This document shows positions 3,341 to 59,986 of a DNA stretch of 63,289 nucleotides, in pieces. The stretch is taken from positions 1 through 63,289 of IMG/VR virus record IMGVR_UViG_3300046516_000276; one strand, given 5' to 3'. Origin of the DNA: a virus. The position numbers and the translations under genes were made by a program. Under the pieces are notes generated by a model. The model ran no database searches and was not told the DNA's origin. It saw nothing but the letters and a program-made list of their open reading frames with translations. Numbering within the stretch: the first letter of the stretch is position 1; each line of letters starts with the position of its first letter.

Positions 3341-6244
3341 ATGAACACGCGTGATTTTCTGCAGCTGCTTACCCCGTCGACGGGGGTGATCTTCGTCGCC
3401 ACGCCCAGTGCGACTGGCGGCTGGGTCAACATCCCCCACCGCACGCTCGATACCGCCGTCGAACTCGTCAACCAGTTGACGTTCGAAGGACGGCCCGCGT
3501 ACTTTTCCATGGCGGGGTTCGAGAAAGACAAATACTGGGACGAAGCAGCGCAGAAGTACCGCCGCCGCACGCAGAGCAACGCCAAGCACATCCGCTCGTT
3601 CTTCCTCGATCTGGACGTCGGGCAGGGCGACCCGCTCAAGTTCGAGTCCAAGGCGCAGGCGCTCACGAGCCTCAAGAGCTTCGTGAAAAAAATCGGCCTG
3701 CCCCGGCCGCTCATCGTCGACTCGGGCGGCGGCATCCACGCGTACTGGCCGCTGGCGCAGGACGTGACCACCTCGATATGGAAGCCGGTCGCCGAGCAGT
3801 TCAAGGCGATCTGCGTGCACGAGCAGTTTCAGGCCGACCGTAGTCTGACCTCGGACGAGGCGCGCGTGCTGCGTGTGCTCGGCAGCTACAACGTCAAGCG
3901 CGGCGCGCCGGTCTCGCTGCTCACCCCTCCCCCCTCCCCGATCTCGTTCGAAGACTTCGCCGGGCGCGTGACGGGCTATGCGGGCCAGCACGGCGTCGCA
4001 ACGGCGGCGGGTAGGTCCAAGGTCGGTGCCCTCGGCGGCGGCCCGGCTGCGGACGTGTGGGGCGCTGGCGACAACCTCGGCGCGACCAACGACCCGCTGA
4101 ACTTCGACCGCATCGTGTTCCACTGCCCGCAGCTGCAGAAGCAGGCGGGCGTGCGCGGGCGTGACACGGGCGAGCAGCTGTGGCGCGCGGGCCTCGGCGT
4201 CGTGAAGTTCTGCGAGCCGCAGCAGGCCGCCGCGCGCGTGATCTCGGACGGCCACCCGGACTTTGACACCGCGCGCACCGAGCAGAAGATCGTCAACTGG
4301 AACGCCGGGCCAACGAAGTGCTCGCACTTCCACCAGCTGCAGCCGTCCATCTGCGAGTCGTGCCCGCACTGGGGCAAGCTCACCTCGCCCGCGCAACTCG
4401 GGCGTCAGGTCGTTGACACCCCTGCCCCGCCCGTGGCGATCACGGTGCCACCGGCCCCGGACGCGATCGATCAGACGCCTGTCACGATCATGCTCACCCG
4501 GCCCGAGAACCCGACCGGCTATTCGCGCCGCGCCGATGGCGCTGTCGTGCGCGAGACGGAGGACTCGGAAGGCCGCCCGCTGTTCGAGGTGATCTGCCCG
4601 TACGACCTGTACCCGCTCGCGATCCGCAGCCAGAACGGCACCGACACGGAGATCGACGAGCACAGCACGTGGCGCGTGCACCTGCCCATGCGCAAGGACG
4701 CCGGCACCGAGCCGCGCGACTTCGTGGTGCCTCTCGGCCTGCTGGCAGATAGCCGCGGGCTGTCCAAGCTGCTGTTCGGCAAGGGCATCGTGCTGCATGG
4801 CGATCAACCGAAGATGACGCTACTCTATATGTCTGCCTACCTGCAAAAGCTGGCCAAGGAAGCGGGCCGCGATAAGCTGTACGAGCGCCTTGGCTGGCAC
4901 GACGAGCACACCACATTCGTGCTGGGCGACCGCCTGATCCACGCCGACGGCACCATGACGCCGCACATGGCGAGCGACGCGATCCGCGCGACGACCAAGA
5001 ACGGCCTCAAGACGGCCGGGACGCTGACCGGCTGGCAGCAGGCCATGCAGTTCTACAACCGCCCCGGCTACGAAGGCCACCGCTTCTTTCTGTACGCCAG
5101 CTTCGCGTCGCCCCTGTTCCACATGAACGACACCGGCAACCGTGGCGCGATGCTCGCGGCCGGCGGCGCCTCCGGGCGCGGCAAGACGACTTGCCTCAAG
5201 GCATGCTCGTCCGTGTGGGGCTCGCCCGATGCGCTGGTGGTGAACGGCAACCGCGAAGGCGCAACCACCAACGCGTTGTACAGTACGCTCGGCACCGTCC
5301 ACTCCCTGCCCTTCCTGCTCGACGACATCACCGAGCGCGACAGCGACGAGCTGCGCCGCCTTGCGCTGAATATCTCGCAGGGCGAAGGCAAGCGCCGCAT
5401 GCAAGCCGACGGCACGATGGTGGGCCGCCTCGACACGTGGGCGAACCTCACGCTCACGTCGACGAACGCCGACACCCTCACCTCGCTCATGTCCACCGGC
5501 AAGGACGTGGACCCCCACCTCATGCGCGTGATCTCGGTCGAGTTTTCGCTCGTCGATGCGCGCGCCGACGCCAAGATCGATGCCGACCGTTTCATCCGTG
5601 CCATGGGACAGAACTATGGCCACGCTGGCGCGATCTTTATGGGGTATATTGCTAAGCACTACGAACAAGTGAAGCGGCTGTACATCAAGAACGTCGAGAA
5701 GGTCGACCGCCTGCTGGCATCGCGCAACGCCTCGGCCGAGCGCTACTGGTCGGCAGTCGTCGCCGCCGCGTACACCGCCGCGCAGATCGCGAGCAAGGCA
5801 GGCATCCTCGCTTTCCCCTACGAGGACGACCTCAAGTGGATGATCAGCCTGCTCACGCGCCAGCGCGAAGCGATCCGCGAGTCGGGCTCGACGCCGGTCG
5901 AATTGCTGAGCCAGTTCCTCGATGGCCACGTGCGCAACACGCTGGCGCTGTCGCCGAAGGGCGCGACGAATCTGGACAACATCGTGATTAAGCCGTTCGA
6001 CGATCTGTTCATCCGGCACGAACTCGACACGGACACGATCTTTGTCGCGCGCTCGGCGGTGATGGCGTACTGCGCGGAGCACCGCACGAGCTTCCGGGCG
6101 TTCGAGCAGAACTTGGAGCGCGACGGCGTGCTGGCCAAGCGCAATGCGCAAAAGGTTCTCGGTGCCGACACCGTGTATTCGAAGGGCCAAACACGTTGCT
6201 GGATGCTCAGCGGCGCGGCCCTGCGTTCAACGACTGGAGTTTGA
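3341..6244 (+). CDS. Primase-helicase: AEP-like primase plus DUF927-type ATPase
   Basis: 967 aa. The N-terminal third resembles archaeo-eukaryotic primases of mobile elements: a DxD-type acidic motif in FFLDLDVG (about residues 88-95) and GGGIHAYW (about 129-136), which supplies the conserved His. The middle has a Cys/His patch (KCSHFHQLQPSICESCPHW, about 327-345). The C-terminal half is a DUF927/superfamily 3-like helicase with Walker A GGASGRGKTT (about 608-617) and Walker B LPFLLDDIT (about 656-664). Together these would prime and unwind DNA at the fork with the family A polymerase at 58109. Priming and helicase functions fused in one chain are common in phage and plasmid replicons. Confidence 0.85.
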   Translation: MNTRDFLQLLTPSTGVIFVATPSATGGWVNIPHRTLDTAVELVNQLTFEGRPAYFSMAGFEKDKYWDEAAQKYRRRTQSNAKHIRSFFLDLDVGQGDPLKFESKAQALTSLKSFVKKIGLPRPLIVDSGGGIHAYWPLAQDVTTSIWKPVAEQFKAICVHEQFQADRSLTSDEARVLRVLGSYNVKRGAPVSLLTPPPSPISFEDFAGRVTGYAGQHGVATAAGRSKVGALGGGPAADVWGAGDNLGATNDPLNFDRIVFHCPQLQKQAGVRGRDTGEQLWRAGLGVVKFCEPQQAAARVISDGHPDFDTARTEQKIVNWNAGPTKCSHFHQLQPSICESCPHWGKLTSPAQLGRQVVDTPAPPVAITVPPAPDAIDQTPVTIMLTRPENPTGYSRRADGAVVRETEDSEGRPLFEVICPYDLYPLAIRSQNGTDTEIDEHSTWRVHLPMRKDAGTEPRDFVVPLGLLADSRGLSKLLFGKGIVLHGDQPKMTLLYMSAYLQKLAKEAGRDKLYERLGWHDEHTTFVLGDRLIHADGTMTPHMASDAIRATTKNGLKTAGTLTGWQQAMQFYNRPGYEGHRFFLYASFASPLFHMNDTGNRGAMLAAGGASGRGKTTCLKACSSVWGSPDALVVNGNREGATTNALYSTLGTVHSLPFLLDDITERDSDELRRLALNISQGEGKRRMQADGTMVGRLDTWANLTLTSTNADTLTSLMSTGKDVDPHLMRVISVEFSLVDARADAKIDADRFIRAMGQNYGHAGAIFMGYIAKHYEQVKRLYIKNVEKVDRLLASRNASAERYWSAVVAAAYTAAQIASKAGILAFPYEDDLKWMISLLTRQREAIRESGSTPVELLSQFLDGHVRNTLALSPKGATNLDNIVIKPFDDLFIRHELDTDTIFVARSAVMAYCAEHRTSFRAFEQNLERDGVLAKRNAQKVLGADTVYSKGQTRCWMLSGAALRSTTGV

Positions 6245-6245
6245 T

Positions 6246-6518
6246 ATGGACATTAACGCCACCCTCGCCGAGCGCGGCGCGCGCTACGGCGACTTCGCCA
6301 CCCACGCGGCGATCTGCCAGCGGATCAAGGAATCGTTCTGGATCAACCCCGGCTGGTCCGGGCTCGCGGCCGACCAGAAGCAGGCGCTTGAGACCATCGC
6401 CGACAAGATCGCGCGCATGCTCAACGGCGACCCCACCTACCACGACAACTGGCACGACATCGTGGGCTACGCCAAGCTGGTCGCCGACCGCCTCGCCACC
6501 CGCGCAGACCCTTCTTGA
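6246..6518 (+). CDS. DUF6378-like small phage protein
   Basis: 90 aa, starting one base after the primase stop. It contains the phage signature LAERGARYGDFATHA at the N-terminus, LETIADKIARMLNGDP (about 53-68) and YHDNWHDIVGYAKL. This pattern is known from many tailed phages as DUF6378 and has no assigned biochemical role. It closes the primase operon, so co-expression with replication genes is likely. Confidence 0.75.
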   Translation: MDINATLAERGARYGDFATHAAICQRIKESFWINPGWSGLAADQKQALETIADKIARMLNGDPTYHDNWHDIVGYAKLVADRLATRADPS

Positions 6519-6655
6519 GTTGACGACAGCGGCGCTCAACGCAGCGGTGATCCCGGCAGACCGTGCCACAAGCCCCTCTCATAGTGAGCGCCCTATCCGC
6601 CCCGCTAGGCTGATAGTGTTATACGGTAAGAGAGGCGGCCGGGGCCAATACATGT
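6519..6655. other. Intergenic spacer before the par array
   Basis: No gene and no ribosome site are evident here. The 3' part becomes AT-richer and leads into the tandem array. I see no convincing terminator after the gene ending at 6518. Confidence 0.5.
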
Positions 6656-6787
6656 GGCTGTATGGGCAGCTATACATATGGCTGTACATACGCTGATACA
6701 TACGCGTCTACATACATCTATACATACATCTGTATTTAAAGCTGTACATCTATGTGGGCTTACATACATACAGATGTAAATATAAGT
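6656..6787 (+). repeat. 12-bp tandem array upstream of parA, candidate centromere (parS) and operator
   Basis: Successive 12-base units are GGCTGTATGGGC, AGCTATACATAT, GGCTGTACATAC, GCTGATACATAC, GCGTCTACATAC, ATCTATACATAC, ATCTGTATTTAA, AGCTGTACATCT, then more degenerate units with TACATAC up to 6787. The consensus is roughly NNCTNTACATAC. The array is AT-rich in a GC-rich genome and ends about 40 bases before parA. In type Ib plasmid partition loci, an iterated site upstream of a small parA binds the ribbon-helix-helix ParB and serves as both centromere and operator. Confidence 0.8.
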
Positions 6788-6824
6788 GTAGGATGGGAAC
6801 CCCTTACCACACAAGGAGTTCCAG

Positions 6825-7511
6825 ATGCCGACGATCGTTTTCATCAGCCCGAAAGGCGGGGTAGGCAAGACCACATCCTCGCTCGTTCTCGCCACGCAAT
6901 TCGCCAAGCGCGGCTACCCTACGACCATAATTGACGCCGACCCGAACCGCCCGCAAGTGGCGTGGTCGAAGGGCGGCGGAACCGACTATTTGAACATCGT
7001 CGGGGAGGTGGACGAGGACTCGATCATCGACGTGATCGACAAGGCGGCGGCAGCGTCGTCGGTGGTGATCGTCGATCTGGAAGGCTCGGCGGGTAAGGTG
7101 GCGTTGCTGGCCGTCAGCCAAGCAGATCTCGTGCTGATCCCGATGCAGGCGTCCGAACTGGACGCGGCGCAGGCCAGCAAGGCACTGCGCGTCATTCGCG
7201 ACTTCCACCGCATGTCGAATCGCACGGTGCCGCACGCCATCCTGTTCACCCGCACCTCGGGCGCGATCGTCACGAAGACGATGCGATCCATTTGCGACAA
7301 TCTGCGCGAGGCGGGCGTGCAGGTGATGACCACCGACCTGTGGGAGCGCGAGGCGTTCAAGCTCATGTTCTCGTACAACCAGACGCTCGAACAGCTGGAC
7401 TTGAAGGTTGCGCCGAGCCGCGACAAGGCCATCGCCAACGCCGAGAAGCTCATGGCCGAGGTGGCAAGCATGGTGGCGCAAGAGGGGGGTGAGGCATGGC
7501 TGAGCGCGTGA
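6825..7511 (+). CDS. parA: ParA-family partition ATPase (type Ib, small)
   Basis: 228 aa with ribosome site AAGGAG 8 bases upstream. The deviant Walker A KGGVGKTT is at residues 10-17 with signature Lys10. IIDADPNRPQ follows at about 34-43 and Walker B-like VVIVDLEGSAG at about 75-85. There is no N-terminal HTH extension, which places it with the small type Ib ParAs that do not repress transcription themselves. These ATPases form dynamic patterns on the nucleoid that segregate plasmid copies. It overlaps the ParB-like gene by 16 bases, and the tandem array lies directly upstream. Confidence 0.92.
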   Translation: MPTIVFISPKGGVGKTTSSLVLATQFAKRGYPTTIIDADPNRPQVAWSKGGGTDYLNIVGEVDEDSIIDVIDKAAAASSVVIVDLEGSAGKVALLAVSQADLVLIPMQASELDAAQASKALRVIRDFHRMSNRTVPHAILFTRTSGAIVTKTMRSICDNLREAGVQVMTTDLWEREAFKLMFSYNQTLEQLDLKVAPSRDKAIANAEKLMAEVASMVAQEGGEAWLSA

Positions 7512-7891
7512 ACTCGTTCATCGACCTCGATGATCTGCCGACCCTGAAACCTGATCCGGCCCACCACAAGCCAGTCGACCCGGCCGTGATCGAGCAGCTG
7601 TCGAAGGCGCACAACTTCCCGAGCCGCATCGTTCAGAACCCTAAACCCGTTGAGGAACCGGAGCCGCCGCCGGAGCCACAGGCGCCGGACGAACCCACCT
7701 CCCTGCAGACGCTTTTCAACAAGCCCGAGCAGACCAAAATGAGCACGTTCAACCTGCCGGTCTCGTTCCGGTCCTTGCTCAAGGAAATCTCGGAGGCCAC
7801 GGGGTCGGACATGACGCGCGTGATGCTCGCCGCTGCGCGCCCGCAGCTGGAGCAGTGGCGGGCCGAGATCAAGAAGCGCCGAAAGCGGTAA
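7496..7891 (+). CDS. ParB-like ribbon-helix-helix centromere-binding protein
   Basis: 131 aa, starting inside the end of parA with a G-rich ribosome site (AGGGGGGTGAGG). The N-terminal half is acidic and Pro-rich (VEEPEPPPEPQ) and unstructured. The C-terminal 55 residues look like an RHH fold: a beta strand MSTFNLP, then helices SFRSLLKEISEATG and DMTRVMLAAARPQL, and a basic tail (KKRRKR). A small RHH adaptor encoded just after a small ParA is the standard partner in type Ib partition. It would bind the 12-bp array at 6656 and stimulate ParA through its flexible N-terminus. Confidence 0.72.
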   Translation: MAERVNSFIDLDDLPTLKPDPAHHKPVDPAVIEQLSKAHNFPSRIVQNPKPVEEPEPPPEPQAPDEPTSLQTLFNKPEQTKMSTFNLPVSFRSLLKEISEATGSDMTRVMLAAARPQLEQWRAEIKKRRKR

Positions 7892-7941
7892 TTCATACGT
7901 TTACCCTAAGCCGCCCCGAAGAAAAAGTCCGATCTTATGAG

Positions 7942-7950
7942 TTATCCACA
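7942..7950 (+). promoter_or_regulatory. DnaA box
   Basis: TTATCCACA is an exact match to the E. coli consensus DnaA box, located in noncoding DNA 286 bases before the Rep start. Host DnaA boxes beside iterons are typical of Rep-dependent plasmid origins. Confidence 0.8.
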
Positions 7951-7981
7951 GGGGCGTGGGGCTAGAATTTTCTTCTTAGCA

Positions 7982-8050
7982 GGCACTTGCCCACCGACCC
8001 ACCCCCTCGGGCGTGATAGAGCGCTGGGGGTGGGTCCATGGACAAGTGCC
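7982..8050 (+). repeat. Long interrupted inverted repeat in the origin region
   Basis: The outer arms GGCACTTGCCC and GGACAAGTGCC pair with one G-U. The inner arms GACCCACCCCC (7996-8006) and GGGGGTGGGTC (8026-8036) pair perfectly. The central loop is 19 nt, with 3-nt internal loops between the arms. It may be a rho-independent-like stop for par transcripts without a T-tract, or a cruciform in the origin. Confidence 0.85.
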
Positions 8051-8061
8051 GCATCGGATTC

Positions 8062-8078
8062 CTTCTTTATATAAGAAG
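8062..8078. repeat. AT-rich palindrome CTTCTT-TATAT-AAGAAG
   Basis: A perfect 6-bp inverted repeat around TATAT. It is the most AT-rich spot in the origin region and could be part of an unwinding element or an operator over a -10-like TATATA. Confidence 0.6.
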
Positions 8079-8113
8079 CGAAATCCCGCAAACCCTTTGT
8101 TCATATAGCGCCA

Positions 8114-8222
8114 ACTACCAAAAATTGTCGCTGTAGCGACAGAATCGGGTGTCTGGGCTACCAAAAAATCGTTGCGTTTTTGTCGCTGCTGCTACAAACT
8201 GCGGGCCTTGGAGCGACAATTT
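8114..8222. repeat. Iteron-like TGTCGCT elements
   Basis: AAAATTGTCGCT (8121-8132) is followed by inverted AGCGACA (8135-8141). TTTTTGTCGCT recurs at about 8177-8187 and inverted AGCGACAATTT at 8212-8222. CTACCAAAAA occurs twice, near 8115 and 8158. The elements lie directly upstream of rep, in the position of Rep-binding iterons. Confidence 0.6.
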
Positions 8223-8229
8223 GAGGCCC
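8203..8229 (+). promoter_or_regulatory. Hairpin covering the rep ribosome site
   Basis: GGGCCT (8203-8208) pairs with AGGCCC (8224-8229). The only Shine-Dalgarno-like GAGG (8223-8226) lies in the 3' arm, and an AGCGACAATTT element lies in the loop. It could limit Rep translation and so copy number. Confidence 0.5.
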
Positions 8230-8235
8230 CCGAAA

Positions 8236-8829
8236 ATGGCACAGGACAGCCAAAATAACCCCGTGAATCGGTACGGGTACGAGTTGTACCGTTCGAACCC
8301 CACGATCCCGTCCGCTGGGCAGATCGCCAAGACGCGCCGCGCGAAGCTAGGCAACGACCGAAAGGGTATCGTCATCGACAACGATACTGGCGACGTGTTG
8401 GGCCATGGCGGCGCAATGGTCTACGAGTTCGAGGAAGTCGACAAAGAGCGGTTCGTGAAGCTCTATCTGGCCGGGCTCAAGCAGGCGATCGGCATGACGA
8501 AGCCGGGGCTACTCATGTTCCAGATGGTGTACGACCAGATGCGCAACCACAAGGATCGGGACTTTGTGATCCTCTCGGCGCTGGATGCCCCCGAGGGCGG
8601 CGAGCGGTCGTTCCAACGCGGCATCAAGGAACTGCTCGACAAGAAATTCCTGTTCCGCTCGACCGCGCGCGACCAGTACTGGGTCAACGTGCAGTACATG
8701 TTCAATGGCGACCGCCTCGCGTTCGTGAAGGCGTACAAGCTGCGGGACGATAACCCGCAGCAGGGCACACTGTTCGACGCGGCGGCCGAAGCGGAATCAG
8801 TTGCCGATGAGTTGGAGAGCGCCAAATGA
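8236..8829 (+). CDS. Plasmid-type replication initiator (Rep), winged-helix
   Basis: 197 aa. The ATG at 8236 is preferred over an upstream in-frame ATG at 8149, because that one would place coding sequence over the iteron-like repeats. The core (about residues 75-175) reads as a winged-helix replication protein of plasmids: GLLMFQMVYDQMRN, KDRDFVILSAL, RSFQRGIKELLDKKFLFRS, then WVNVQYMFNGDRLAFVKAY. That last block resembles the signature of RepL-type initiators. Its position after par and a DnaA box fits initiation at 7892-8235. A transcription factor with the same fold is the main alternative. Confidence 0.65.
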   Translation: MAQDSQNNPVNRYGYELYRSNPTIPSAGQIAKTRRAKLGNDRKGIVIDNDTGDVLGHGGAMVYEFEEVDKERFVKLYLAGLKQAIGMTKPGLLMFQMVYDQMRNHKDRDFVILSALDAPEGGERSFQRGIKELLDKKFLFRSTARDQYWVNVQYMFNGDRLAFVKAYKLRDDNPQQGTLFDAAAEAESVADELESAK

Positions 8830-9047
8830 AGAAGTGGTTCCCGAAAACGCCCGGCGGCACGATCGTCACGTGGCTGGCCAGCGACACCGCCGATGAGGCA
8901 TGGGCCAAGCTGTTGCAGGATGCCAGCCACATGCCGTACAAGACGAAGGCCGAATTCAAGCTGCGCGGCTACAGCGTGAAGCAGATGGACGCCAGCCTCG
9001 CCACGGACAAGCCGCCGATGAACTACAAGTTTTCGAGCGTGCGATGA
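8826..9047 (+). CDS. Small hypothetical protein
   Basis: 73 aa, coupled to rep by ATGA overlap and to the next gene by another ATGA. The sequence is basic and aromatic with no known domain; residues 20-60 look helical. I do not recognise it. The tight coupling suggests it is expressed with rep, perhaps as a copy-control or host-interaction protein, but nothing in the sequence proves that. Confidence 0.7.
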   Translation: MKKWFPKTPGGTIVTWLASDTADEAWAKLLQDASHMPYKTKAEFKLRGYSVKQMDASLATDKPPMNYKFSSVR

Positions 9048-15206: not shown

Positions 15207-18200
15207 TTACTGCCGCATGGGCATCGCCGCGTAACCCAGCTGCTGCTGTGCCACAGGCACTTGGCGCTTGGTCAGGTTGATGCCGAGGCCCGCGCCGAGC
15301 CCGTGTTCCATCATGTGCCGCTGGATCAGGCCGGCGATGTCGGTGATCGGCTGCGTCGGGTTGGCGCGGTTGAAATCGGCGACCTTCGCGATCGCGTCCT
15401 TCATATCGTCGGGGTTGCCCGACTGCGACGCCTTGAAAACCCGGTCGCCGATGATCTCGCGGCGATGCTGCAAAATTTGCTGATTCTGCGAGAACTCGTG
15501 CGCCGCCTCGTCGCGCGTGGCCTTCTCGTTGGTGCGGAAGCCCGCCGCCTGCAGGCCGACATCCCACGCGCCAGCCTTGTCGAACGGCGCCGGCAACGGG
15601 TTGCCCTTCGCGTCGGTGTAGCCGCCGGGGCCGATGGCGCCGCCCAGTTCCGCCGCCTTGTAGTAGGGCTTGATGCCCGACGGCAGCATCTGCTCCAGAC
15701 CCTTGATGTAGTTGCCTTCCATCATGGTGTGCGCGCCGAGGCCCACATCGATCAAGCCGTTGAGCGCCGGGCCGAGCAGCTGCTGCGACTGGTCCGCGAT
15801 GCGGTCCTTCACCTGCGCGCGCGAGGCCAAGAACTCGGAACCCGGCAGCAGGTTTTCGAGCCCGAACGTCGACGTGTCCATGTTGATGAGCGAGCCCGCG
15901 CCGTGCGCGATGAAATCGCCCGCGCCGTCGCCGAACGTCTTGCTGAGCCAGTTGCGGAAGTCGCCGCGGATGTCGCTCGGGTCGTCGTTGTCTTTCACCA
16001 ACGTGTTGTAGACGCCCGCGAACGCGTTGGCGAACGGCATGCCGAGCGCGCCCGAGATCGCGAACGTCGCGGCCATGAGGCCGGAGAACTCGCGGCGCGC
16101 TTCCTTCATGCGCTGCACGCCCTCGGGCGTGCCCTTGTCCTTCGCGAAATAGCCGTCCTGCACCGTGCGCGCCAGATGCTGCATCGTCTGCAAGTTGTAA
16201 TTCATGAAGGAGGTGAACAGCGGCGTGGACTTGCCCGCGAACCCGAACTTGCCGATCTGGCGCGCCGTGTTGTCCGGGTCGAAGTTATCCATCGCGTTGG
16301 TGACGGCGTCGTTCGCCCACTCCGTCGCGGCGTTCACATCCATCGGCCGGAAGCCCTTAGAGCCGGCGCGCGCCATGCGAAAGGCCGCGAGGCCCACCGT
16401 CAGGCGGTTGGTCATTTCCGCGTACTGCGCCGTCATCGAGGCGAGGCGCGCCACGTCCTGCTGACGCTGGCTCGACCCTTCCATCGCGTGCTGCAGCTGC
16501 TGCGCTTGGCCGAGCTTGAGCACGCCGCGATCGTGCAGTTCCTGAATGAACCCCTTGTCTTCGACCGACAGGCCCGGCAGGTTGTCGAACTTCATGCCGG
16601 TGCTTATCACGCCATGGATACCGTCAGCCTTCCAGCCGGCCGCGATCGAGTTGCGGATCACGTTCATCGCGGTGCCGGTGGCCTTGGCCATTTCCTTCGA
16701 AGCGCCGACGAAGCCGTAGCGCGCGCCGAGGATCGGCACCCCCCGATGGTAGGGTTGCGCCATCGTGCGGATGAAGAATGCCGGCGACACGGCCAGATAG
16801 AAGCTGTGGCCGAACGAGTTCAGCATGTTGATGTGCGTGTTGTCCACGCGCGTCATGCCGTTCTGGTAGCGCTTGTTGATCTCGCCCGCCACCATCGTCG
16901 CGCGCGCTGCCGCGTCGCTGTCCGTGCCCCGGTTCATCGCCTCGTTGGAGGTCTTCATGTCCCGCAGCGATTGCGCGAACTGGCGGTTCGTGTACGTGTT
17001 GCTCAAGTCCTGCACCATGCCGCTCGCGCGGCGCGCGAAGCTGCCGACGAAATCGCCGTCGTAGCCGGGCACGCCCTTGCGTTCCATCTTGGCGCTGCGG
17101 CCCGCCGTCTCCGGCAGCATCGAGAGCAGCTGGCGCGTGATGTTCTGCTTGACGGCCATGTGCTGCTCGGGCGTGAGCGACGCGTCGAGGTTCGCGTTAT
17201 CGTGCAACGCCTTTTCCAGCTGACGCAGGGCAGGGGTGACACCGGCCGCGCCCTGCATGTCGTTGATCGTCAGCATGCCCTTGCTCGACTGCGGCACGTC
17301 GACCACGTCCGCACCGCCGGCCTTCACCAGCTTGTCGAACAGACCCTGCGCTTGATCGAGCGAGTCCACGCGGAAGAACGCGTTTTTCTGGCCGTTCAGG
17401 TCGCCGAGCACCTTGTTCGAGCCGGCGAGGGCTTCCTCCAGCTTGGCCTGAATCTGCGGCGTGACCGTCACACCGTCCTTGAACTTGATGTTGACGTAGT
17501 GATCGCCATCGCGGCCGAGCGAGAAGTACGGGGCCTTGGTCTGCGCGTAGTACATGCGGCCCAGTTCCGCGAGCCCGCGCTGCAGCAGCGTATCCTCCGG
17601 CAGTTCTTTGGCCTCGGCGAACATGCTGCGCACGCGCGCGTCGAGTTCGGACGCCGCGCCATCCAGATGCAGATCAGCGTTGGCGTTGGCCTTGCCCCGC
17701 AACGCCTTGTCCATAAAGTCCATCTGGCCCATGTGCTTCGCCGCAAAGTCCGACTGCGCACGCGCGATCGCCAGCTGGTTCTCCAGACGCGCACGGGCTT
17801 CGTCGCCCGGCTGCAGGCGCGCGATCTCCGCTTCGAGGCGCGGCACCACGCCCGTGTGCACGCTCATCAGGTTCGCCGTGAGCGAGGACACCGTCTGCAC
17901 GTACGTCTTGCGGTTCTGCTTCGCGCCCTCCGCGAGCGCCGTCTGCAGCGACTCCGGCAGCTGGCGATACTCGCGGTGGATCGCGTTCACGTAGTCGGGC
18001 TTCGCGTCCAGTGCCTTGTTGATCTTGAGGTTGTCGGCGTAGTTTTTCGTGAAGTCGAAACCGTTGATCGACGCCTCGCCAGCGATGCGCATGAGCTTGA
18101 AGTTGAACGCCTTGGCATCCTTCGTCGCGCGCAGTGCCGCCTTGGTGCGCTCGGCATAATCGCCCAGCGACTGGCTCAGCTGCTCGGCCACGACACGGCG

Positions 18201-21200
18201 CGCGTCGCGCGCGGCGCGGTAGCCGTCAACCGCCTTGGCGAACCCGGACTCGACCATGGCCGGGGTCGTGCGCACTTGATGCGCAATGAAGTCCACGGTT
18301 TTCCAGCCGAGCATCTTCTGGAACAGGCCACGGTTCGCCGTGGGCAGCTTGTCGGTGATCCGTTCGAGGTGGTCGGCGGCGCTCGCCATCGAGTGCAACA
18401 CCTGACCCGTCGACTCCAGCGCGCCGGCCGGCGATGAGTCGAAGTCGCGTTGCATCTTGGCCACGTCGAAATACTCGTCGTTGAGGCTCATCGCGCGGTC
18501 GAAGAACGAAGTGGCCGGGGCTTCCTTGCCGGTCGCGCCGAACAGCTTCTTGACGAACTCCACAGCACGTTGCCACAAAGACTTAGGCGCGGCGCTGCCC
18601 TCGGCGGCCGGCACCGTGTCCTTAAGGAACTGCTGGAACGACGGGTTGCTGTTGAGTTCAGCCAAGAACTCGTGGTTGTTCGTGAGGCCGTACTCATTCG
18701 CGTACTTGTCGGCCGAAGCGTGCAGAATCACCTCGTTGCGCAGCGCGTCGAGTTCCTGACCCATGCGCAGCATGCGCGCTTCGAACTGGTTGCGCGGCGC
18801 GTAGCCCTTAGCCACGGCCTTCACCAAGCTATCAGCGAAGTTGATCAGGTGCGCTTGCGCCGCGTGCGTCGCCTCGTGCAGCAGGACATGCTCGCTCATG
18901 CCCGTGCGGAACAGATCGACCGCGTCGTGCGCGGGCGTGTACTGGCCTTGGATGCCGGCGTCCGTGGGGTGATCCATGTCGCCATGGCCCATGATCTTCG
19001 TCGGCAGGTTCAGGGTCTGCAGGAACTTCGCGTAAGTGCGAACCCAGCCCTTCGAGCCCGTCTCGGCCAGATTGCCGAGCACGTCATGCAGCTTGCCCTC
19101 AACGTGTTGGCCGCCGATCGAGTCGAGCAGGTTCGGGTTCGTCTGGCCCGGCAGGTTCGAACGGCTCGCCAGCGATTCGCCGGTCTGGCCTTCGATCGCG
19201 TCGCGGCCATACTCCAGCATGCCGTCGATGTAGTCGTTCGCGCGCTTGCTGCCGTCGCTCATATTCTTGAACTTGCGGCCGGTGATGTCCTTGAACGCGC
19301 TGAGGATCGAGTTCACGTGCTTCGCGTGCTCGGCCTGCTCGGGCGTGAGCGTGCCCTTGGCGGCATACTCGTCCGCGATGGACTTGAGCGCGTCGCGCAT
19401 GTCGAACGCTTGCTCGATGGGCTTCTTACCCGTGTTGTCGGGCAGGGTGGCCATCACGCGCGCGGTGCCGGCGGGCGGCGGTTCGCTGATCGGCACGACA
19501 GGGGCATCATTGGCGGCTGGTGTCGCGACAGCCTTATCCATCTGCGCACGCCGCGCGTCGCCACGCTCCAGCGCGTTGTCCAGCACTTCAGCGAGCGCCA
19601 TGCGGTCCTGCGCGCCGCGCGCATCCGCCAACGTCTTGCTCTGTTCTTCGGGCGTGTGCAGACCCTGCTCGCCTTGGCGGTCCAGTTCCTTCGCCGCCCA
19701 GCCGGTGTGCATATCGGTCGCCTTGTCCACTGCCTCGGCGACCTTGCGGTTCTGCTCCTGCCAGCGCGCGGTGCGCAGCTTGTTCTCGAACGACCCTTCG
19801 GTGCTGGCCTCGCCGGTCTGGCGTGCGGCCTCAGCCTCCAGCAGATCGGCGTGCGCCTGCGGCGAGTAACCGGCCTCGATCGCCTGATCGCGAATCCCTT
19901 CCAGCGCGGTACGGGCGCGCACGTCATCGCCATACGCGCGGCGCACTGCGGCCTCGCCTTGATCGACACGTTCGAAGCCCTTGATCTGCTCGGGCGTGTA
20001 TCCGTACTGGCCAGTCTTATAGCCGCCGTCCGACTTGAAAAAGCCGGGGTGTTCCGCGAGCCAGTCCCCCGATACACCAGCATCCTTCGCCATCTGGGCA
20101 ACGGCTTCGTCGCTCGGGCGCGACGGGTCCAGCGCCTGCATGCGGTCGCTTTCCTCGCGCGACAAGCCATCAGAGCGCAGCTTGTTGAGCAGCGTCTCAT
20201 ACTCGGCCGCGCGCGGGTCAACCTGCGCGGCCGGTTCTTCGGCCTTGGGCATGGCCTCTTTCCACTGCGCGGAAAGCGCCGCCAGACGGTCGCGCGTGGT
20301 CTGGCCGATCTTCGCGTCCTTATCCGCCAACAGGTTGTCGAGCGCGTCGATCTGCTCTTGATGCGTGGCCATCTTGTCGATGCCGAGCTTGTCCAGCTGC
20401 TTCTGCACCGGCACCAGCGCCTGTTTCTTGATCGTGTCCTGACCCGTCACCGTCTTGTTCGCGGCGGTGATGTCGGTCGTGATCTCGTCGGTCGCCTTCG
20501 TCGCGTTCGCCTCGCGCGGCGCGGGGGCAGCGGTTGCAGGTTCTTGCGCAGCGGTTGCAGGTTCTTGCGCAGCGGTTGCAGGTTCTTGCGCAGCGGTCGC
20601 AGGCTCCTGCGCAGCGGCCGGCGCCTCTGCCTGCTCGGGGTACAGCTGGTTGGCGCGATCCTGCACCGTCAGTTCGCGCTCGTGCCCGGTCGCGGCGTCC
20701 TGGCCCCACACGCCAGACGGCGCGTTGAACGCGGCCTCGGCATCGGCCTTGGCCGCCTCCGTCTGCTTCTTCGTCGGCTTGCGCGAGTCGGCGCCCGTCA
20801 ACTGGTTGATGAATGCCTGCGTCGACATCGCGGGCGGCGTCTGCGGCACCTGCACCGGCTCGGTCGGGGCGGGCGGTGCGCTCAGATCGAGTTCGGCCTG
20901 ATCGCCAGTGCGCTCGGGCGCGGCCGGCTGTTCGAACAGATCCCCCTGATTCGGGTTCTCGTTCGCCTCGCGCATGCCGCCACCACCAAACATGTCGCCT
21001 TGCTCGCCCGGCGCGAGCGGCGCGCCAGACCCCGCGGCCGGGGGCGCGCCGAACATTTCCCGCTGGCCATCGGTGTACTGCGGCCCCTGAATCGTGTCCG
21101 GCGTGAACAGGCTCGCGTCGATCGGCAGCGGCTTGTTTTCGAGGATCGCGTTCTGCGCGTTCTGGCGGAACGCGGCGGCCTTCTGCGGGTCGGCCTTGGC

Positions 21201-22145
21201 CAGCGCCACGGCGTATTGATCGGCCAGTTGCGAGCGAATTTCCGGCGTCGCGTCGGTGCCCGCCAGCGACTTTGCGCGATCCTGCGCATTGCGCACAGAA
21301 AGCGCGCGGCCGGCGAGACCCAGCGGCGACATCACAGCCGTCAGCCCCAGCATCGGGCCGATCTGCTCTTTCATCGATTCCCACGGGCTGCGGTCGTCAA
21401 CACCGTATGCGTTCTCGATGCCCGCCGATACACCGGCCTGCCCCATGCCCAAGCCCACGTTCTCAGCCGCGAGGCCCGGCAACGACTTGGCCAACGGCTT
21501 GAGAATGCCGTCCTGTCCGGCCATCTGGCCGAGGATGCCCTCAGCCGTCGACTTGCCCTCAATGCCGATCACCTTGCCGATCGCCGTGCCAGCGCCGCCG
21601 AGCAACCGGCCGCCGACCATGCCCATCGCCGTCTGGCCAGCGAACGTCGCGCCCGCGTTGAGCGCAGCGGCATGCCGCGCCGTCTCGTCGTCGAGGCCCT
21701 TGGCCTTCGCTTTCTCCAGCGTGTCTTGACCAGCTGAGCCGCCACCCAACGCGCCGAGCGACGCGGCACCGATCGCCGTGGCCGCGAGCGCCGGAGCGCC
21801 GAGCGTCGCCGCGCCTGCACCGATCGCCATCGCCGGCAAAGCCGCGCCCGCGATCTCCGCACCTTGCGCCAAGTTGTTGACGAGCCACCCGTGATCCTCG
21901 GGGCGCAGCTGCATGCTCGGCTTCGCGCCCATGTCCTCGCCGAACTTGCGCACCGACGCACCGACGTTATCCGCGCCAGCGTACTGCAGCGTCTTGCCGG
22001 CCATGGTGGGGAGGTCTACGAGCGCGCTGCGCGCGATACCCGTGCCGATTTCCCCGAGCGCGCCGCGCGGGGCGGCGGGCGGGTCGACGGTTACAGCGCT
22101 CGGGTTGATTTCGTCAGGGACGACAGCGTTTTGATCGATCGGCAT
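15207..22145 (-). CDS. Giant internal virion (polyvalent-type) protein with HExxH metallopeptidase motif
   Basis: 2312 aa, the largest gene. The N-terminus (about 90-200) is Gly/Ala-rich and hydrophobic, suggesting membrane-interacting helices. Residues about 440-640 are low-complexity, including four AAQEPAT repeats. Around residues 1085-1098 is LLHEATHAAQAHL, an HExxH zinc-peptidase motif, with a downstream Glu candidate in NNHEFLAEL near 1160. Long helical regions follow. Near 1990, STPLFTSFMNYN resembles the C-terminal block of large PLxRFG-type phage proteins. Such proteins are carried in podovirus heads and ejected with the DNA. The order next to two further internal proteins agrees. 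Confidence 0.82.
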   Translation of the reverse strand: MPIDQNAVVPDEINPSAVTVDPPAAPRGALGEIGTGIARSALVDLPTMAGKTLQYAGADNVGASVRKFGEDMGAKPSMQLRPEDHGWLVNNLAQGAEIAGAALPAMAIGAGAATLGAPALAATAIGAASLGALGGGSAGQDTLEKAKAKGLDDETARHAAALNAGATFAGQTAMGMVGGRLLGGAGTAIGKVIGIEGKSTAEGILGQMAGQDGILKPLAKSLPGLAAENVGLGMGQAGVSAGIENAYGVDDRSPWESMKEQIGPMLGLTAVMSPLGLAGRALSVRNAQDRAKSLAGTDATPEIRSQLADQYAVALAKADPQKAAAFRQNAQNAILENKPLPIDASLFTPDTIQGPQYTDGQREMFGAPPAAGSGAPLAPGEQGDMFGGGGMREANENPNQGDLFEQPAAPERTGDQAELDLSAPPAPTEPVQVPQTPPAMSTQAFINQLTGADSRKPTKKQTEAAKADAEAAFNAPSGVWGQDAATGHERELTVQDRANQLYPEQAEAPAAAQEPATAAQEPATAAQEPATAAQEPATAAPAPREANATKATDEITTDITAANKTVTGQDTIKKQALVPVQKQLDKLGIDKMATHQEQIDALDNLLADKDAKIGQTTRDRLAALSAQWKEAMPKAEEPAAQVDPRAAEYETLLNKLRSDGLSREESDRMQALDPSRPSDEAVAQMAKDAGVSGDWLAEHPGFFKSDGGYKTGQYGYTPEQIKGFERVDQGEAAVRRAYGDDVRARTALEGIRDQAIEAGYSPQAHADLLEAEAARQTGEASTEGSFENKLRTARWQEQNRKVAEAVDKATDMHTGWAAKELDRQGEQGLHTPEEQSKTLADARGAQDRMALAEVLDNALERGDARRAQMDKAVATPAANDAPVVPISEPPPAGTARVMATLPDNTGKKPIEQAFDMRDALKSIADEYAAKGTLTPEQAEHAKHVNSILSAFKDITGRKFKNMSDGSKRANDYIDGMLEYGRDAIEGQTGESLASRSNLPGQTNPNLLDSIGGQHVEGKLHDVLGNLAETGSKGWVRTYAKFLQTLNLPTKIMGHGDMDHPTDAGIQGQYTPAHDAVDLFRTGMSEHVLLHEATHAAQAHLINFADSLVKAVAKGYAPRNQFEARMLRMGQELDALRNEVILHASADKYANEYGLTNNHEFLAELNSNPSFQQFLKDTVPAAEGSAAPKSLWQRAVEFVKKLFGATGKEAPATSFFDRAMSLNDEYFDVAKMQRDFDSSPAGALESTGQVLHSMASAADHLERITDKLPTANRGLFQKMLGWKTVDFIAHQVRTTPAMVESGFAKAVDGYRAARDARRVVAEQLSQSLGDYAERTKAALRATKDAKAFNFKLMRIAGEASINGFDFTKNYADNLKINKALDAKPDYVNAIHREYRQLPESLQTALAEGAKQNRKTYVQTVSSLTANLMSVHTGVVPRLEAEIARLQPGDEARARLENQLAIARAQSDFAAKHMGQMDFMDKALRGKANANADLHLDGAASELDARVRSMFAEAKELPEDTLLQRGLAELGRMYYAQTKAPYFSLGRDGDHYVNIKFKDGVTVTPQIQAKLEEALAGSNKVLGDLNGQKNAFFRVDSLDQAQGLFDKLVKAGGADVVDVPQSSKGMLTINDMQGAAGVTPALRQLEKALHDNANLDASLTPEQHMAVKQNITRQLLSMLPETAGRSAKMERKGVPGYDGDFVGSFARRASGMVQDLSNTYTNRQFAQSLRDMKTSNEAMNRGTDSDAAARATMVAGEINKRYQNGMTRVDNTHINMLNSFGHSFYLAVSPAFFIRTMAQPYHRGVPILGARYGFVGASKEMAKATGTAMNVIRNSIAAGWKADGIHGVISTGMKFDNLPGLSVEDKGFIQELHDRGVLKLGQAQQLQHAMEGSSQRQQDVARLASMTAQYAEMTNRLTVGLAAFRMARAGSKGFRPMDVNAATEWANDAVTNAMDNFDPDNTARQIGKFGFAGKSTPLFTSFMNYNLQTMQHLARTVQDGYFAKDKGTPEGVQRMKEARREFSGLMAATFAISGALGMPFANAFAGVYNTLVKDNDDPSDIRGDFRNWLSKTFGDGAGDFIAHGAGSLINMDTSTFGLENLLPGSEFLASRAQVKDRIADQSQQLLGPALNGLIDVGLGAHTMMEGNYIKGLEQMLPSGIKPYYKAAELGGAIGPGGYTDAKGNPLPAPFDKAGAWDVGLQAAGFRTNEKATRDEAAHEFSQNQQILQHRREIIGDRVFKASQSGNPDDMKDAIAKVADFNRANPTQPITDIAGLIQRHMMEHGLGAGLGINLTKRQVPVAQQQLGYAAMPMRQ
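20527..20610 (-). repeat. 21-bp tandem repeat (4 copies) inside the giant protein gene
   Basis: Four consecutive 21-base units (first three identical, fourth with three changes) encode the heptad AAQEPAT four times on the - strand. It is a flexible linker prone to length change by slippage. Confidence 0.9.
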
Positions 22146-42088: not shown

Positions 42089-42099
42089 CAGTAAAACCC

Positions 42100-42128
42100 G
42101 GACAAACGGAGCAACCCTCCGTTTGTCC
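42100..42128 (+). repeat. Intergenic palindrome copy 2
   Basis: GGACAAACGGAG, loop CAACC, CTCCGTTTGTCC: a 12-bp perfect stem with a 5-nt loop. It is followed by the shared leader AACGTGTTGAAAGGAAA and the ATG at 42154. Confidence 0.95.
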
Positions 42129-42153
42129 TCAACGTGTTGAAAGGAAAAGACCC

Positions 42154-42234
42154 ATGAAACTAGAGATAATCCAACTGGCTGTCGTTCTGCTAGGGCAAGT
42201 CATTTTAGTTGTCGCCATGGCGCTCGCGCGCTGA
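42154..42234 (+). CDS. 26-aa membrane peptide
   Basis: The ATG sits 10 bases after GAAAGGAAA, within the palindrome-plus-leader module used by other genes here. The product is short: a head MKLEIIQ, then a continuous hydrophobic helix (LAVVLLGQVILVVAMALA) and a final Arg. It resembles tiny single-pass phage membrane peptides. It is followed 21 bases later by a strong terminator. Translation is likely given the leader, but function is unknown. Confidence 0.6.
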   Translation: MKLEIIQLAVVLLGQVILVVAMALAR

Positions 42235-42255
42235 GTGAAAATCCCGAACTACCAC

Positions 42256-42286
42256 GCCCACTAGGTCACGCCTAGTGGGCTTTTTT
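42256..42286 (+). terminator. Rho-independent terminator
   Basis: GCCCACTAGG, loop TCACG, CCTAGTGGGC, then TTTTTT: a perfect 10-bp stem, 5-nt loop and six T. It ends the short operon 41396-42234. Confidence 0.93.
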
Positions 42287-42315
42287 ACGTCTGCGTTTTC
42301 CCCACAACACGTTGG

Positions 42316-42346
42316 CGGACAAACGGAGTTTGCCTCCGTTTGTCCG
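42316..42346 (+). repeat. Intergenic palindrome copy 3
   Basis: CGGACAAACGGAG, loop TTTGC, CTCCGTTTGTCCG: a perfect 13-bp stem. Unlike most copies it is not followed closely by a start codon. Confidence 0.95.
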
Positions 42347-42369
42347 CGCGTCGTATCCCGTCTCACTAG

Positions 42370-42386
42370 ACAGGCTCAGAGCCTGT
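42370..42386. repeat. 17-bp perfect palindrome ACAGGCTC-A-GAGCCTGT
   Basis: Two 8-bp arms around a single A. The half-site recurs at least seven more times in the next 770 bases in both orientations, like dispersed binding sites of one DNA-binding protein. Confidence 0.85.
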
Positions 42387-45726: not shown

Positions 45727-46281
45727 ATGGCTAAGCGTTACCGTGATGCGTTCGCAATTCAGCAGGGTGCATGCAACCCCATCGCAATCGTCAACGCGTT
45801 GAAGAATGCGATCGACGAATGCCGCGCCGAGAACATGGGCACCGATGCAATCAACGGCGACATGGCCGTGCGTGCGATGGTGCACCAGCTGGCGCACCTG
45901 ACGAGCGTGCAGTACTTCGACCAGACTGCATACGAGGCGATGATGGAGCGCGTCGAGAAGGGCAAGCAGGCCGAGATCGAATGGCAACGCGATGAGTCGT
46001 ACATGGGCGCGCGGCCGGCGCAGCCTGTGATCACGTTCGGCAAGAAGGGCGTGGACGTTGTACACAAACGAGCGCCCGAGGTGTACCAGTACATGCCGCA
46101 GTACGCGAAGATCGCAATCGAGCGCATCGACGCAGACAGTGACCTGCGCACGCACGCCAAGCTCGACGAACTGCTCGACGCCTACGCCAAGACGCACGGT
46201 GAACAGGTGGACCAGCACACCCGTGACTCGGCGCACTGCATCTGCAAGCGTCGGTTCCCCGACTTCAAGGTGCAAGCATGA
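45727..46281 (+). CDS. Hypothetical protein upstream of the resolvase
   Basis: 184 aa with AAGGAGG 7 bases before the ATG at 45727. Mostly helical: [56 protein letters not shown]. Its final 20 residues include HCICKRRF. It overlaps the resolvase start as ATGA. It may be a cofactor of recombination or simply an operon neighbour. Confidence 0.68.
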
Positions 46282-46856
46282 GCCGCGTCTTTGTGTATGC
46301 CCGTGTGTCGACGGCGGACCAGACGACTGACAACCAGCTGCGCGAGATCGAGAGCGCAGGGTTCAAGGTCGAGCCGCGGCGCACTGTGACCGAGAGCATA
46401 TCGGGCAGCGTAGCAGCGAGCGAGCGGCCGGGCTTCAGCAAGTTGGTGGATAGGCTGGAGGTGGGCGACGTGCTGATCGTGACCAAGCTCGATCGCTTGG
46501 GCCGCAATGCGATGGATGTGCGCACGACTGTGACGACGCTCACCACGCTCGGCGTGCGTGTGCATTGCTTGGCGTTGGGTGGCATGGACCTGACGAGCCC
46601 CGCCGGCAAGATGACGATGGGTGTGATCAGTGCGATGGCTGAGTTCGAGCGGGATCTGCTGATCGAGCGAACGAACGCAGGCTTAGATCGTGCACGTGCG
46701 CAGGGCAAGACGTTCGGCCGTCCGTCGGCACTGAGCGAGGCGCAGCAGACCGAGGCGCGCATGCGTCTCAACAAGGGCGAGACAGTCTCACAGCTGGCTC
46801 GTGAGTTCAAGACTAGCCGCACCACGATACAGCGGCTGAGAGATAGGGGAGTGTGA
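46278..46856 (+). CDS. Serine recombinase, resolvase/invertase type
   Basis: 192 aa, the length of Tn3/Gin-type recombinases. Catalytic Ser11 is in [16 protein letters not shown] with Arg9. [15 protein letters not shown] supplies further active-site Arg residues, and the E-helix region [18 protein letters not shown] (about 115-132) precedes a C-terminal HTH ([17 protein letters not shown]). Such enzymes resolve multimers or invert segments; they do not normally integrate phages. In a genome with par and rep, dimer resolution is the natural role. No clear res site was identified. Confidence 0.93.
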
Positions 46857-57832: not shown

Positions 57833-58107
57833 TGACTGTCAAATCCATGGTCGACGTGACCCTCGAAAATTTAGTAGAACTTGTCATCAAGAGCGGCGCG
57901 GGCGCGAAGATGCCGCCGCAGGACGTGCTCGCCAAGCAGTTCAGCGTGAGCCGCACGGTGCTGCGCGAGGCGCTTGTCGTGCTGGAATACCTCAAGGTGC
58001 TGCATGTGCGCCCGAAGATCGGCACGACCGTCAACGCACTGGATCAGTGGAAAACGCGCAACCACGACATCATCGAGTGGCGCGCTCGTGCGGAAGGAAA
58101 GAAGTAA
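57832..58107 (+). CDS. GntR-type winged-helix regulator (DNA-binding domain only)
   Basis: 91 aa. Residues 8-70 are a GntR winged helix: LENLVELVIKSGAGAKMPPQDVLAKQFSVSRTVLREALVVLEYLKVLHVRPKIGTTVN, including the family mark SRTVLREAL before the wing. There is no effector-binding domain; the protein ends 20 residues later. It is the first strong regulator candidate of this arm and is coupled to the DNA polymerase gene, which starts one base after its stop. Binding sites are not known. Confidence 0.85.
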   Translation: MTVKSMVDVTLENLVELVIKSGAGAKMPPQDVLAKQFSVSRTVLREALVVLEYLKVLHVRPKIGTTVNALDQWKTRNHDIIEWRARAEGKK

Positions 58108-58108
58108 A

Positions 58109-59986
58109 ATGGACCTCGTGACGCTCGACTTCGAGACGTTCTACGGGGACGACTACACGCTGTCGAAGCTCACGACAGAGGCGTACGTTCGCGACCCGCG
58201 TTTCGAGTCCATCATGGTCGGCATCAAGATCAACAACGACCGGCCGTTTTGGGTGCCGGGGCCGTCGATCAAGCTGCACCTCGACTCCCTGCAGCTGCAC
58301 AAGAAAGCCGTGCTGTGCCATCACGCGCACTTCGATGGCTTCATTCTCACGCACCACTACGGCATCTATCCGCGCATCTATTTCGATACGCTCGGCATGG
58401 GGCGCGCGCTGTTCGGCGCCCATGGCCGCTTGTCCCTCGACAAGTTGGCAGAGCGCTATGGCATCGGCAAAAAAGGAACAGAGGTACACAATGTCAAAGG
58501 CATGCGGCTGCAAGACTTCTCGCCGGCGGGGCTTGAGCGCTACGGCACTTATTGCTGTACTGACGTTCAGCTTACTTACGATCTGTTCAATAAAATGGTG
58601 GGCCAGTTCTCGCGACACGAACTCGAACTCAACGACCAGATCATCCGAATGTTCACAGAGCCAAGTCTCATGCTCGACGAGGCCATGCTCGAACAGTACC
58701 GACAGGATTTACGCAACGAGAAAATTACTCTGCTCCTGAAGTCCGGCGCGCAGGCTGACGATCTCATGAGCAATGAGAAGTTCGCCCAGCTGCTGCGCGA
58801 CAACGGCGTGGAGCCGCCCCTCAAGATCAGCCCGCGCACGCAGAAGCTCACCTATGCGTTCGCGAAGACGGATCAGGGCATGCAGGCGTTGCAGGAGCAC
58901 CCGGACGAGCGTATCCAGATCATCGTGGAGGCGCGCCTCAAGAACAAGACGACGATCGCGGAGCGCGGCGCCGAGCGGCTGATCGCCATGGGTCGACGCG
59001 GGCCGGCGACGATTTACCTGAAGTACAGCGGCGCGGCCGGCACGCACCGGCTCAGCGCAGGCGACAAGATTAACTGGCAGGCATTCAAGCGCGGCAGTGC
59101 CACGCGCAAGGCCGTCATGGCGCCCGAGGGCGAGGAGCTGGTGGTCGGCGACTCGTCGAACATCGAGGCGCGCCTGCTCGACTGGCTGGCGGGCCAAGAC
59201 GACATGGTTGAGGTGTACATCAAGGCCGACAAGAAGTTGGGGCCTGACATGTACTGCGTGATCGGCGGCCTGATCTACAAGACCGATGTGGTCAAGGGCC
59301 GCAGCGATCTCGACAACGACCGTCGGCAGATGGGCAAGGTGACGAAACTCGGGCTCGGTTTTGGCATGGGCGACGACAAGTTCATCGTCTCCGTGCGCGG
59401 GCAGGCCAAGGACAAGGACGGCCGGCCGCTCGTGCTCGAACGGGACTTCGCCCACTACATCGTGCATGACGTGTATCGCGGTAAGCACCCGCATGTTGTG
59501 AAGCTCTGGAAGCGCGCCGAGCACGCGCTTGAATGTATTCTGAAAGGGCTGGAAGATATGCCTGTGGACCCGCGCGGCGTCGTTCGGACGTGCCGCGACG
59601 GTCTCGTGATGCCGGGCGGAATGAAGATCAACTACCCCGAACTGCGTCGAGAAAAGAACGACGAGGGCAGGTGGCAGTGGACGTTCTGGAACGGCAAGAT
59701 GCGCGAGCATCTGTACGGGGCCAAGGTGGTCGAGAACATCATCCAGTGCCTCGCGCGGCTGGTGGTGTTCGCACAGTGTCTGGAAACGCGTAAGGAGGCG
59801 GGGGCGCTCGCGCAGTGGGTCCATTCGGTCCACGACGAGGGGATTTTCCGCACCCAGCAGTTCTACGCGCCGTGGTTGCAGGAAAGGCTGTTGGCGAATA
59901 TGCGGGTGTCGCCGGACTGGGCGCCGGGCTTGCCGCTCAACAGCGAAGGGGGTTTCAACCGGCGGTACGGGTTGGCCAAGTCGTAA
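58109..59986 (+). CDS. DNA polymerase, family A, with 3'-5' exonuclease
   Basis: 625 aa from the ATG at 58109. The N-terminal exonuclease begins with LDFETFY (D7, E9). The polymerase has motif A VGDSSNIEARLLDWL (about 346-360), motif B DRRQMGKVTKLGLGFGMG (about 405-422) and motif C VHSVHDEG (about 572-579). This is the size and order of T7-like and other podoviral family A polymerases. It would copy the genome with the primase-helicase at 3341. The start follows the GntR stop by one base. Confidence 0.95.
   Translation: MDLVTLDFETFYGDDYTLSKLTTEAYVRDPRFESIMVGIKINNDRPFWVPGPSIKLHLDSLQLHKKAVLCHHAHFDGFILTHHYGIYPRIYFDTLGMGRALFGAHGRLSLDKLAERYGIGKKGTEVHNVKGMRLQDFSPAGLERYGTYCCTDVQLTYDLFNKMVGQFSRHELELNDQIIRMFTEPSLMLDEAMLEQYRQDLRNEKITLLLKSGAQADDLMSNEKFAQLLRDNGVEPPLKISPRTQKLTYAFAKTDQGMQALQEHPDERIQIIVEARLKNKTTIAERGAERLIAMGRRGPATIYLKYSGAAGTHRLSAGDKINWQAFKRGSATRKAVMAPEGEELVVGDSSNIEARLLDWLAGQDDMVEVYIKADKKLGPDMYCVIGGLIYKTDVVKGRSDLDNDRRQMGKVTKLGLGFGMGDDKFIVSVRGQAKDKDGRPLVLERDFAHYIVHDVYRGKHPHVVKLWKRAEHALECILKGLEDMPVDPRGVVRTCRDGLVMPGGMKINYPELRREKNDEGRWQWTFWNGKMREHLYGAKVVENIIQCLARLVVFAQCLETRKEAGALAQWVHSVHDEGIFRTQQFYAPWLQERLLANMRVSPDWAPGLPLNSEGGFNRRYGLAKS

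Follow-up and report, generated by a model that had tools for sequence, protein, structure and literature searches.

The DNA studied here, referred to as the window, is the whole of IMG/VR record IMGVR_UViG_3300046516_000276 (positions 1 to 63,289; 63,289 bases). Its ends share an exact overlap of 127 nt and thus give a circular map of 63,162 bp, although the length of this overlap could equally be that of an assembler k-mer rather than of a real terminal repeat. Phage structural and lysis genes are present in the record (major head protein, large terminase, portal-like adaptor and holin), and both components of the lytic replisome claimed by a previous sequence-only reading, a family-A-type polymerase and a DUF927 primase-helicase, were found. 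In contrast, no Phage_integrase match was detected in the window. The features relevant to this work are shown in Table 1.

Table 1. Position, strand and supporting evidence of the features analysed (numbering of the window).
Feature	Position	Strand	Evidence or remarks
DUF927 primase-helicase (lytic)	3341..6244	+	Conserved left flank of the cassette slot
Exchangeable maintenance cassette (partition, origin and rep)	6645..8824		Exchanged as one block in G030, the closest relative
Centromere-like array of 12-bp-phased TACATA-type direct repeats	~6648..6790		Directly upstream of parA
ParA-type partition ATPase, 228 aa	6825..7511	+	Pfam VirC1/AAA_31/CbiA; PHROG ParA-like partition protein
ParA partner with RHH-like C-terminus, ParG-like candidate centromere-binding protein	7496..7891	+	C-terminal alignment
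DnaA box TTATCCACA	7942..7950	+	Single match in the genome; enriched upstream of Rep homologs
Conserved hairpin, probably a leftward RNA (away from rep)	7980..8051	-	Covariation, G.U strand bias, covariance-model matches
AT palindrome TTCTTTATATAAGAA followed by a CAAACCC-type conserved block	8064..8095		Homolog alignment
Four TGTCGCT boxes overlapping the rep leader, candidate operators or binding sites of Rep	8126..8218		Homologs have repeats of their own at similar positions
Rep, RepL/RepY-like winged-helix replication initiator, 197 aa	8236..8829	+	tblastn, BLASTP, profile match, AlphaFold
Serine resolvase/invertase, 192 aa, candidate multimer-resolution enzyme	46278..46856	+	Pfam Resolvase, E 1e-37
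DNA polymerase, Pol I-like/family-A-type (lytic replisome)	57974..59986	+	PHROG DNA polymerase; NCBIfam Pol I-type

Several observations concern the rest of the genome. The serine resolvase, which was absent from all 21 related phage records searched, is followed by an AlpA-type regulator (46278-47065) and could resolve plasmid multimers. Between two gene arms, a region of about 1 kb (42089-43134) shows a lower G+C and lacks long ORFs; in 2-kb windows across 41-44 kb the G+C was 0.52-0.53. A 2312-aa protein encoded on the minus strand (15207-22145) resembles, in its C-terminal third, DarB-like antirestriction/PLxRFG proteins of other phages. The 60.5-kb circular Escherichia coli plasmid pSTEC648_2 (L227) has a replication block in common with the phage (exoribonuclease, polymerase, nuclease, SNF2 helicase and DUF927 primase) and carries a RelE/HigA toxin-antitoxin pair downstream of the primase.

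When the region downstream of the primase-helicase gene was compared with that of related phages, its content was seen to be exchangeable. In G030, the closest relative with this region available (primase-helicase 88% identical), the flanks are 88% (5001-6644) and 91% (8825-9035) identical to those of the phage and the segment between them, 6645-8824, is unrelated at the nucleotide level; the slot is occupied there by another ParA gene, another RHH-like gene and another wHTH Rep-like gene, followed by a DnaA box of its own. In G008, which also has a circular map, the primase is followed by a Firmicute-type RepL (E 1e-32), ParA and an RHH-like gene, and in G003, G004 and G025 a tyrosine integrase is located 1-1.5 kb downstream of the same primase. 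Integrase and ParA were not found together in any of the 22 records searched, the remaining records, several of which are fragments, having neither. As relatives hold either other Par/Rep cassettes or an integrase at this position, the slot is an exchangeable prophage-maintenance locus, filled either by an integrase or by any of three or more cassettes that combine partition and replicon. A Rep profile search of 34 related records, a set without a positive control, did not detect this Rep in any of them. Relatives identified by the capsid are common in public viral contigs, and they also occur on plasmids, since the cultured Massilia violaceinigra has a circular 87-kb plasmid with a 53%-identical capsid gene, a related portal gene and ParA/ParB, together with site-specific integrases.

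The partition part of the cassette was overlooked in the sequence-only reading. ParA, with its Walker motif beginning near residue 10 of 228, matched NCBIfam ParA_partition with an E value of 7e-31, yet under the cut-off of the model, and a search for close relatives of the protein found none. Its partner had no Pfam match; its C-terminus aligns with proteins that accompany other ParA genes, one of them annotated as ParG, and it is on this alignment, in place of a family match, that the RHH fold is proposed. The array upstream of parA is a family of direct repeats spaced by 12 bp (TRF period 12) that includes 7 of the 11 copies of TACATA in the genome, and its autocorrelation at 12 (0.53) was reached by 0 of 5000 mononucleotide shuffles and by 9 of 3157 other genome windows. 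A period of 12 was also detected in the ParA region of G008. This previously unreported array would be the centromere. Type Ib (ParA/ParG-like) systems combine a small ParA lacking an N-terminal HTH with an RHH partner and an upstream repeat array; the ParA of 228 aa and the 12-bp array would fit this type, and the RHH-like partner may do so. The order ParA-RHH-origin-Rep is shared with the viral contigs L195 and L197, and Rep is found beside ParA/ParG on plasmids. In these two contigs, obtained from one sample, ParA, the RHH-like gene, the hairpin and Rep lie beside phage-type genes (L195 8635-10525; L197 4-1919), likely representing another phage-plasmid lineage with this replicon.

The start of Rep at ATG 8236 is backed by the alignment of its homologs. 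No useful match to the protein was given by any Pfam, PHROG or NCBIfam family, and it stayed under the score of PF05732 (RepL), a family that was matched by 16 of 37 homologs at E <= 0.01. The relation to RepL was supported by hhalign, in which the profile of the 37 homologs aligned to bona fide RepL (E 3e-5, probability 73%) through the TGE, FVK and N..FNGD motifs; the profile shared with the RepL/RepY superfamily includes VDxxTGE, FVK and N..FNGDR. The winged helix was also recovered, as the core of the AlphaFold model (residues 70-150, pLDDT mostly 79-96), for which Foldseek gave no significant match and only weak generic wHTH ones.

By tblastn, Rep matched 187 plasmid records, the best match being a 13-kb Acidisoma plasmid (47% identity, 2e-42) in which rep adjoins parA and parG. 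The Rep of Paracoccus pMOS6 is among these homologs, RepY of Sulfitobacter pDSM110277_f is 34% identical (BLASTP E 4e-26), and the Rep nearest to that of the phage is encoded by a 3.4-kb circular contig with 1341x coverage (L117). The family extends over Proteobacteria, Bacteroidota, Acidobacteriota, Cyanobacteriota, Planctomycetota and Verrucomicrobiota, with no tblastn match among 50,697 records of isolate phages. Against viral contigs, a close-relative search with Rep alone as query returned nothing, whereas the Rep profile search did succeed. Large planctomycete contigs often carry homologs that share the TAAGAA leader (L128-L156, L162), with two copies on one complete chromosome. Regarding function, RepY with at least 450 bp of upstream sequence replicates in Phaeobacter (PMC9025767), and in the minimal replicon of pMOS6 Rep is sufficient, with oriV upstream of rep (PMC3832669); by analogy with these homologs, autonomous replication would be expected from the origin described here. 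The annotation by itself is no proof of it, because SEN1990 of Salmonella, a RepL-annotated wHTH protein, is a regulator that does not replicate its island (PMC10655114). No study on copy control in this Rep family was found in the literature.

The gap that precedes the Rep ORF (7892-8235, 344 bp) contains every feature previously listed for it. The perfect DnaA box is the sole match in both strands of the window, even with the relaxed pattern TTWTNCACA, and it is not a product of chance, because such boxes are enriched upstream of Rep homologs: 14 of 50 have a perfect one within 450 nt, compared to 1.5% of windows drawn at random from the same loci (19-fold, p = 2e-14). The AT palindrome occupies 8064-8078, and TAAGAA lies 164 nt ahead of the rep start in most close homologs and within -178 to -152 in 40 of 119 (mode -164; random 0.5%). 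TGTCGCT was found in both orientations, at 8126 (+), 8135 (-), 8181 (+) and 8212 (-). These boxes are weak alone, as a 7-mer was equally frequent in 34 of 2000 dinucleotide shuffles and the genome contains 20 copies of TGTCGCT; they become convincing through the homologs, which have Rep-specific repeats, different in sequence, at the same place. The description of iteron-like repeats is valid for short inverted and direct elements similar to Rep boxes and not for classical 17-22-bp iterons, as the boxes are of 7 bp only and in both orientations; the initiator gave no Rep_3 match. When the DNA upstream of rep was compared among homologs from genomes, plasmids and viruses, a common layout was observed, consisting of the hairpin, an AT-rich TATATAAGAA block located some 164 nt upstream of the start, homolog-specific repeats and rep. 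The GC skew, suggested as a check for the origin, showed no switch at the site, and a sigma-70 promoter scan of the gap gave no match. The presence of a plasmid-like origin with its Rep is backed by homology, synteny and cassette exchange with relatives.

The interrupted inverted repeat, flanked by the DnaA box and the AT element, was confirmed as two 25-nt arms (7982-8006 and 8026-8050), 88% complementary and spanning 69 nt overall. About 27 Rep homologs, belonging to several phyla, have the hairpin conserved ahead of their genes. Its distribution is clustered on the Rep tree, where the studied phage sits in a well-supported group of hairpin-bearing Reps. In an alignment of 22 sequences, the outer 12-bp stem had 31 double-changed cells compared to 9.4 in shuffles, one pair changed from G-C to C-G in 8 of the sequences, and the pairing was lost when the partner strand was slid. 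A covariance model found the hairpin upstream of Rep in loci outside its training set (L117, L178, L199 and, weakly, L185). No gathering-threshold match to Rfam 15 was obtained in the gap or at the hairpin in 12 homologous loci; sub-threshold matches in the gap, to animal microRNA models of GC-rich hairpins, were put down to chance.

The variation of the stem differs between strands. Two positions show C-A mismatches on the rep strand in 18 and 7 sequences that are U-G pairs on the opposite one; at these mostly non-Watson-Crick positions, 25 of 26 such cells pair as G·U on the minus strand only, and minus-strand folds were the more stable in 21 of 23 hairpins (p = 4e-5). Because the non-Watson-Crick pairs are G·U exclusively on the strand opposite rep, the hairpin is read as a leftward RNA, and probably corresponds to a non-coding RNA transcribed in this direction with a role in origin function or copy control. 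It would not be the leader of the left gene, a possibility rejected because left genes run rightward in the phage and leftward in loci L002 and L116. A search by eye for a promoter of the leftward RNA around TTCTTATA found no consistent -35. Readings as an attC-like site and as an intrinsic terminator were dropped, the core motif being absent in the former and the distance to the T-run being variable in the latter.

That the hairpin acts as a terminator, or as DNA in the form of a cruciform, of paired DnaA-like boxes or of a single-strand origin, instead of as a leftward RNA, is considered less likely than not. Its arms look like inverted DnaA boxes (TTATCCAC), compensatory changes would likewise be produced by ssDNA hairpins, and in some homologs the hairpin is followed by a T-run on the rep strand; the strand bias in G·U cells and in fold stability argues against a DNA element, and the variable distance of the T-run against a terminator. 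Quite tentatively, the origin of this widespread Rep clade could be a two-part initiator, in which the wHTH Rep would require an obligatory conserved leftward hairpin RNA of about 70 nt, made at the origin and acting as primer or copy-number regulator; it would represent a new RNA family that plasmids and phages from several phyla carry and exchange with one another as one module.

Phage genes, a plasmid-type initiator by homology and a partition system coexist in the same replicon, as in phage-plasmids. We conclude that the phage is most probably a phage-plasmid, maintained in the prophage state as a low-copy circular plasmid (probability of about 0.85). Rep would bind the TGTCGCT boxes next to its own gene and DnaA the single upstream box, leading to the opening of the AT-rich element, and the circle would be copied by the host replisome after a Rep-dependent theta-type initiation at the gap, as judged from relatives. 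Rep probably represses its own promoter, since the boxes overlap the rep leader. ParA and the RHH-like protein would segregate the copies through the 12-bp-phased array, whereas in the lytic phase the genome would be copied from another origin by the phage polymerase and primase-helicase. As the cassette sits where some relatives hold an integrase, the lineage may alternate between integrated and plasmid prophages through the swap of this block.

It is unlikely that the wHTH protein is instead a transcription regulator (repressor or immunity protein), with the gap as its operator region and persistence of the phage by other means. The behaviour of SEN1990 (PMC10655114), the generic winged-helix fold and the homologs on large chromosomal contigs, two of them on one planctomycete chromosome, would fit this role; however, small plasmids carry close homologs as their sole recognisable initiator, two family members replicate experimentally, and ParA/RHH, the centromere-like array and the enrichment in DnaA boxes suit an origin over an operator. 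Slightly less probable still is that the Rep-origin serves lytic replication instead of plasmid maintenance. A P1 protein named RepL does so (PMC9948254), and the Rep-origin would provide the otherwise missing lytic origin of the phage, but Rep is grouped with parA, the gene of the RHH partner and the array and exchanged together with them as one block, this Rep is missing from most related phages that share the replisome, and in three of these an integrase fills the slot.

Maintenance as a plasmid being the preferred reading, the locus offers a view, at base-pair resolution and between close relatives, of how one phage lineage changes prophage lifestyle by replacing a single 2-kb locus; because only this locus is replaced, the evolution from integrating phage to phage-plasmid can be directly tested by a one-block swap. 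A second outcome is a conserved origin element whose covariation is RNA-like, in a Rep family spread over the phyla named above. This hairpin, not listed before, is the most novel part, and together with the exchange locus it deserves attention. Regarding the sequence-only reading, its outline of origin and Rep stood, and its inverted repeat is recast as a conserved structured element that favours a minus-strand RNA.

Among known systems, the Acidisoma plasmid unnamed4 (L002) and the 3.4-kb Ochrobactrum plasmid (L117) have a Rep 47-52% identical with the same hairpin upstream, and the former also ParA/ParG neighbours as in the phage, but they are mobilisable or cryptic plasmids without phage genes. 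Phage P1 is likewise a phage-plasmid in which plasmid and lytic replication are separate, but its plasmid origin is based on RepA and iterons. A further difference is that RepL of P1 is the lytic initiator (PMC9948254). The RepY and pMOS6 replicons (PMC9025767, PMC3832669) are similar in their Rep (about 32-34% identical) and in an origin with short repeats upstream of rep, but belong to another clade of the Rep tree, and the hairpin model had no match in the stretches examined upstream of their rep genes. The pSN2-type RepL plasmids of Firmicutes (PF05732; PMC5703833) also have a small wHTH Rep with distant profile similarity; they are filed as rolling-circle replicons and the phage Rep does not reach their model, while the DnaA box and AT element suggest a theta-type opening here. 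In cluster A mycobacteriophages, parABS takes the place of the integration cassette, and the origins rely on either a Rep or an RNA (Wetzel et al., 2020; PMC7157519). As here, one slot holds either an integrase or partition plus origin, with some of those phages using a Rep protein and others a non-coding RNA beside parA, although the phages are unrelated and their Rep and Par types are different. The phage studied here would be a new variety of phage-plasmid and not a new category, differing from cluster A in having Rep and a candidate RNA element in one origin and a Rep type that is swapped between close relatives.
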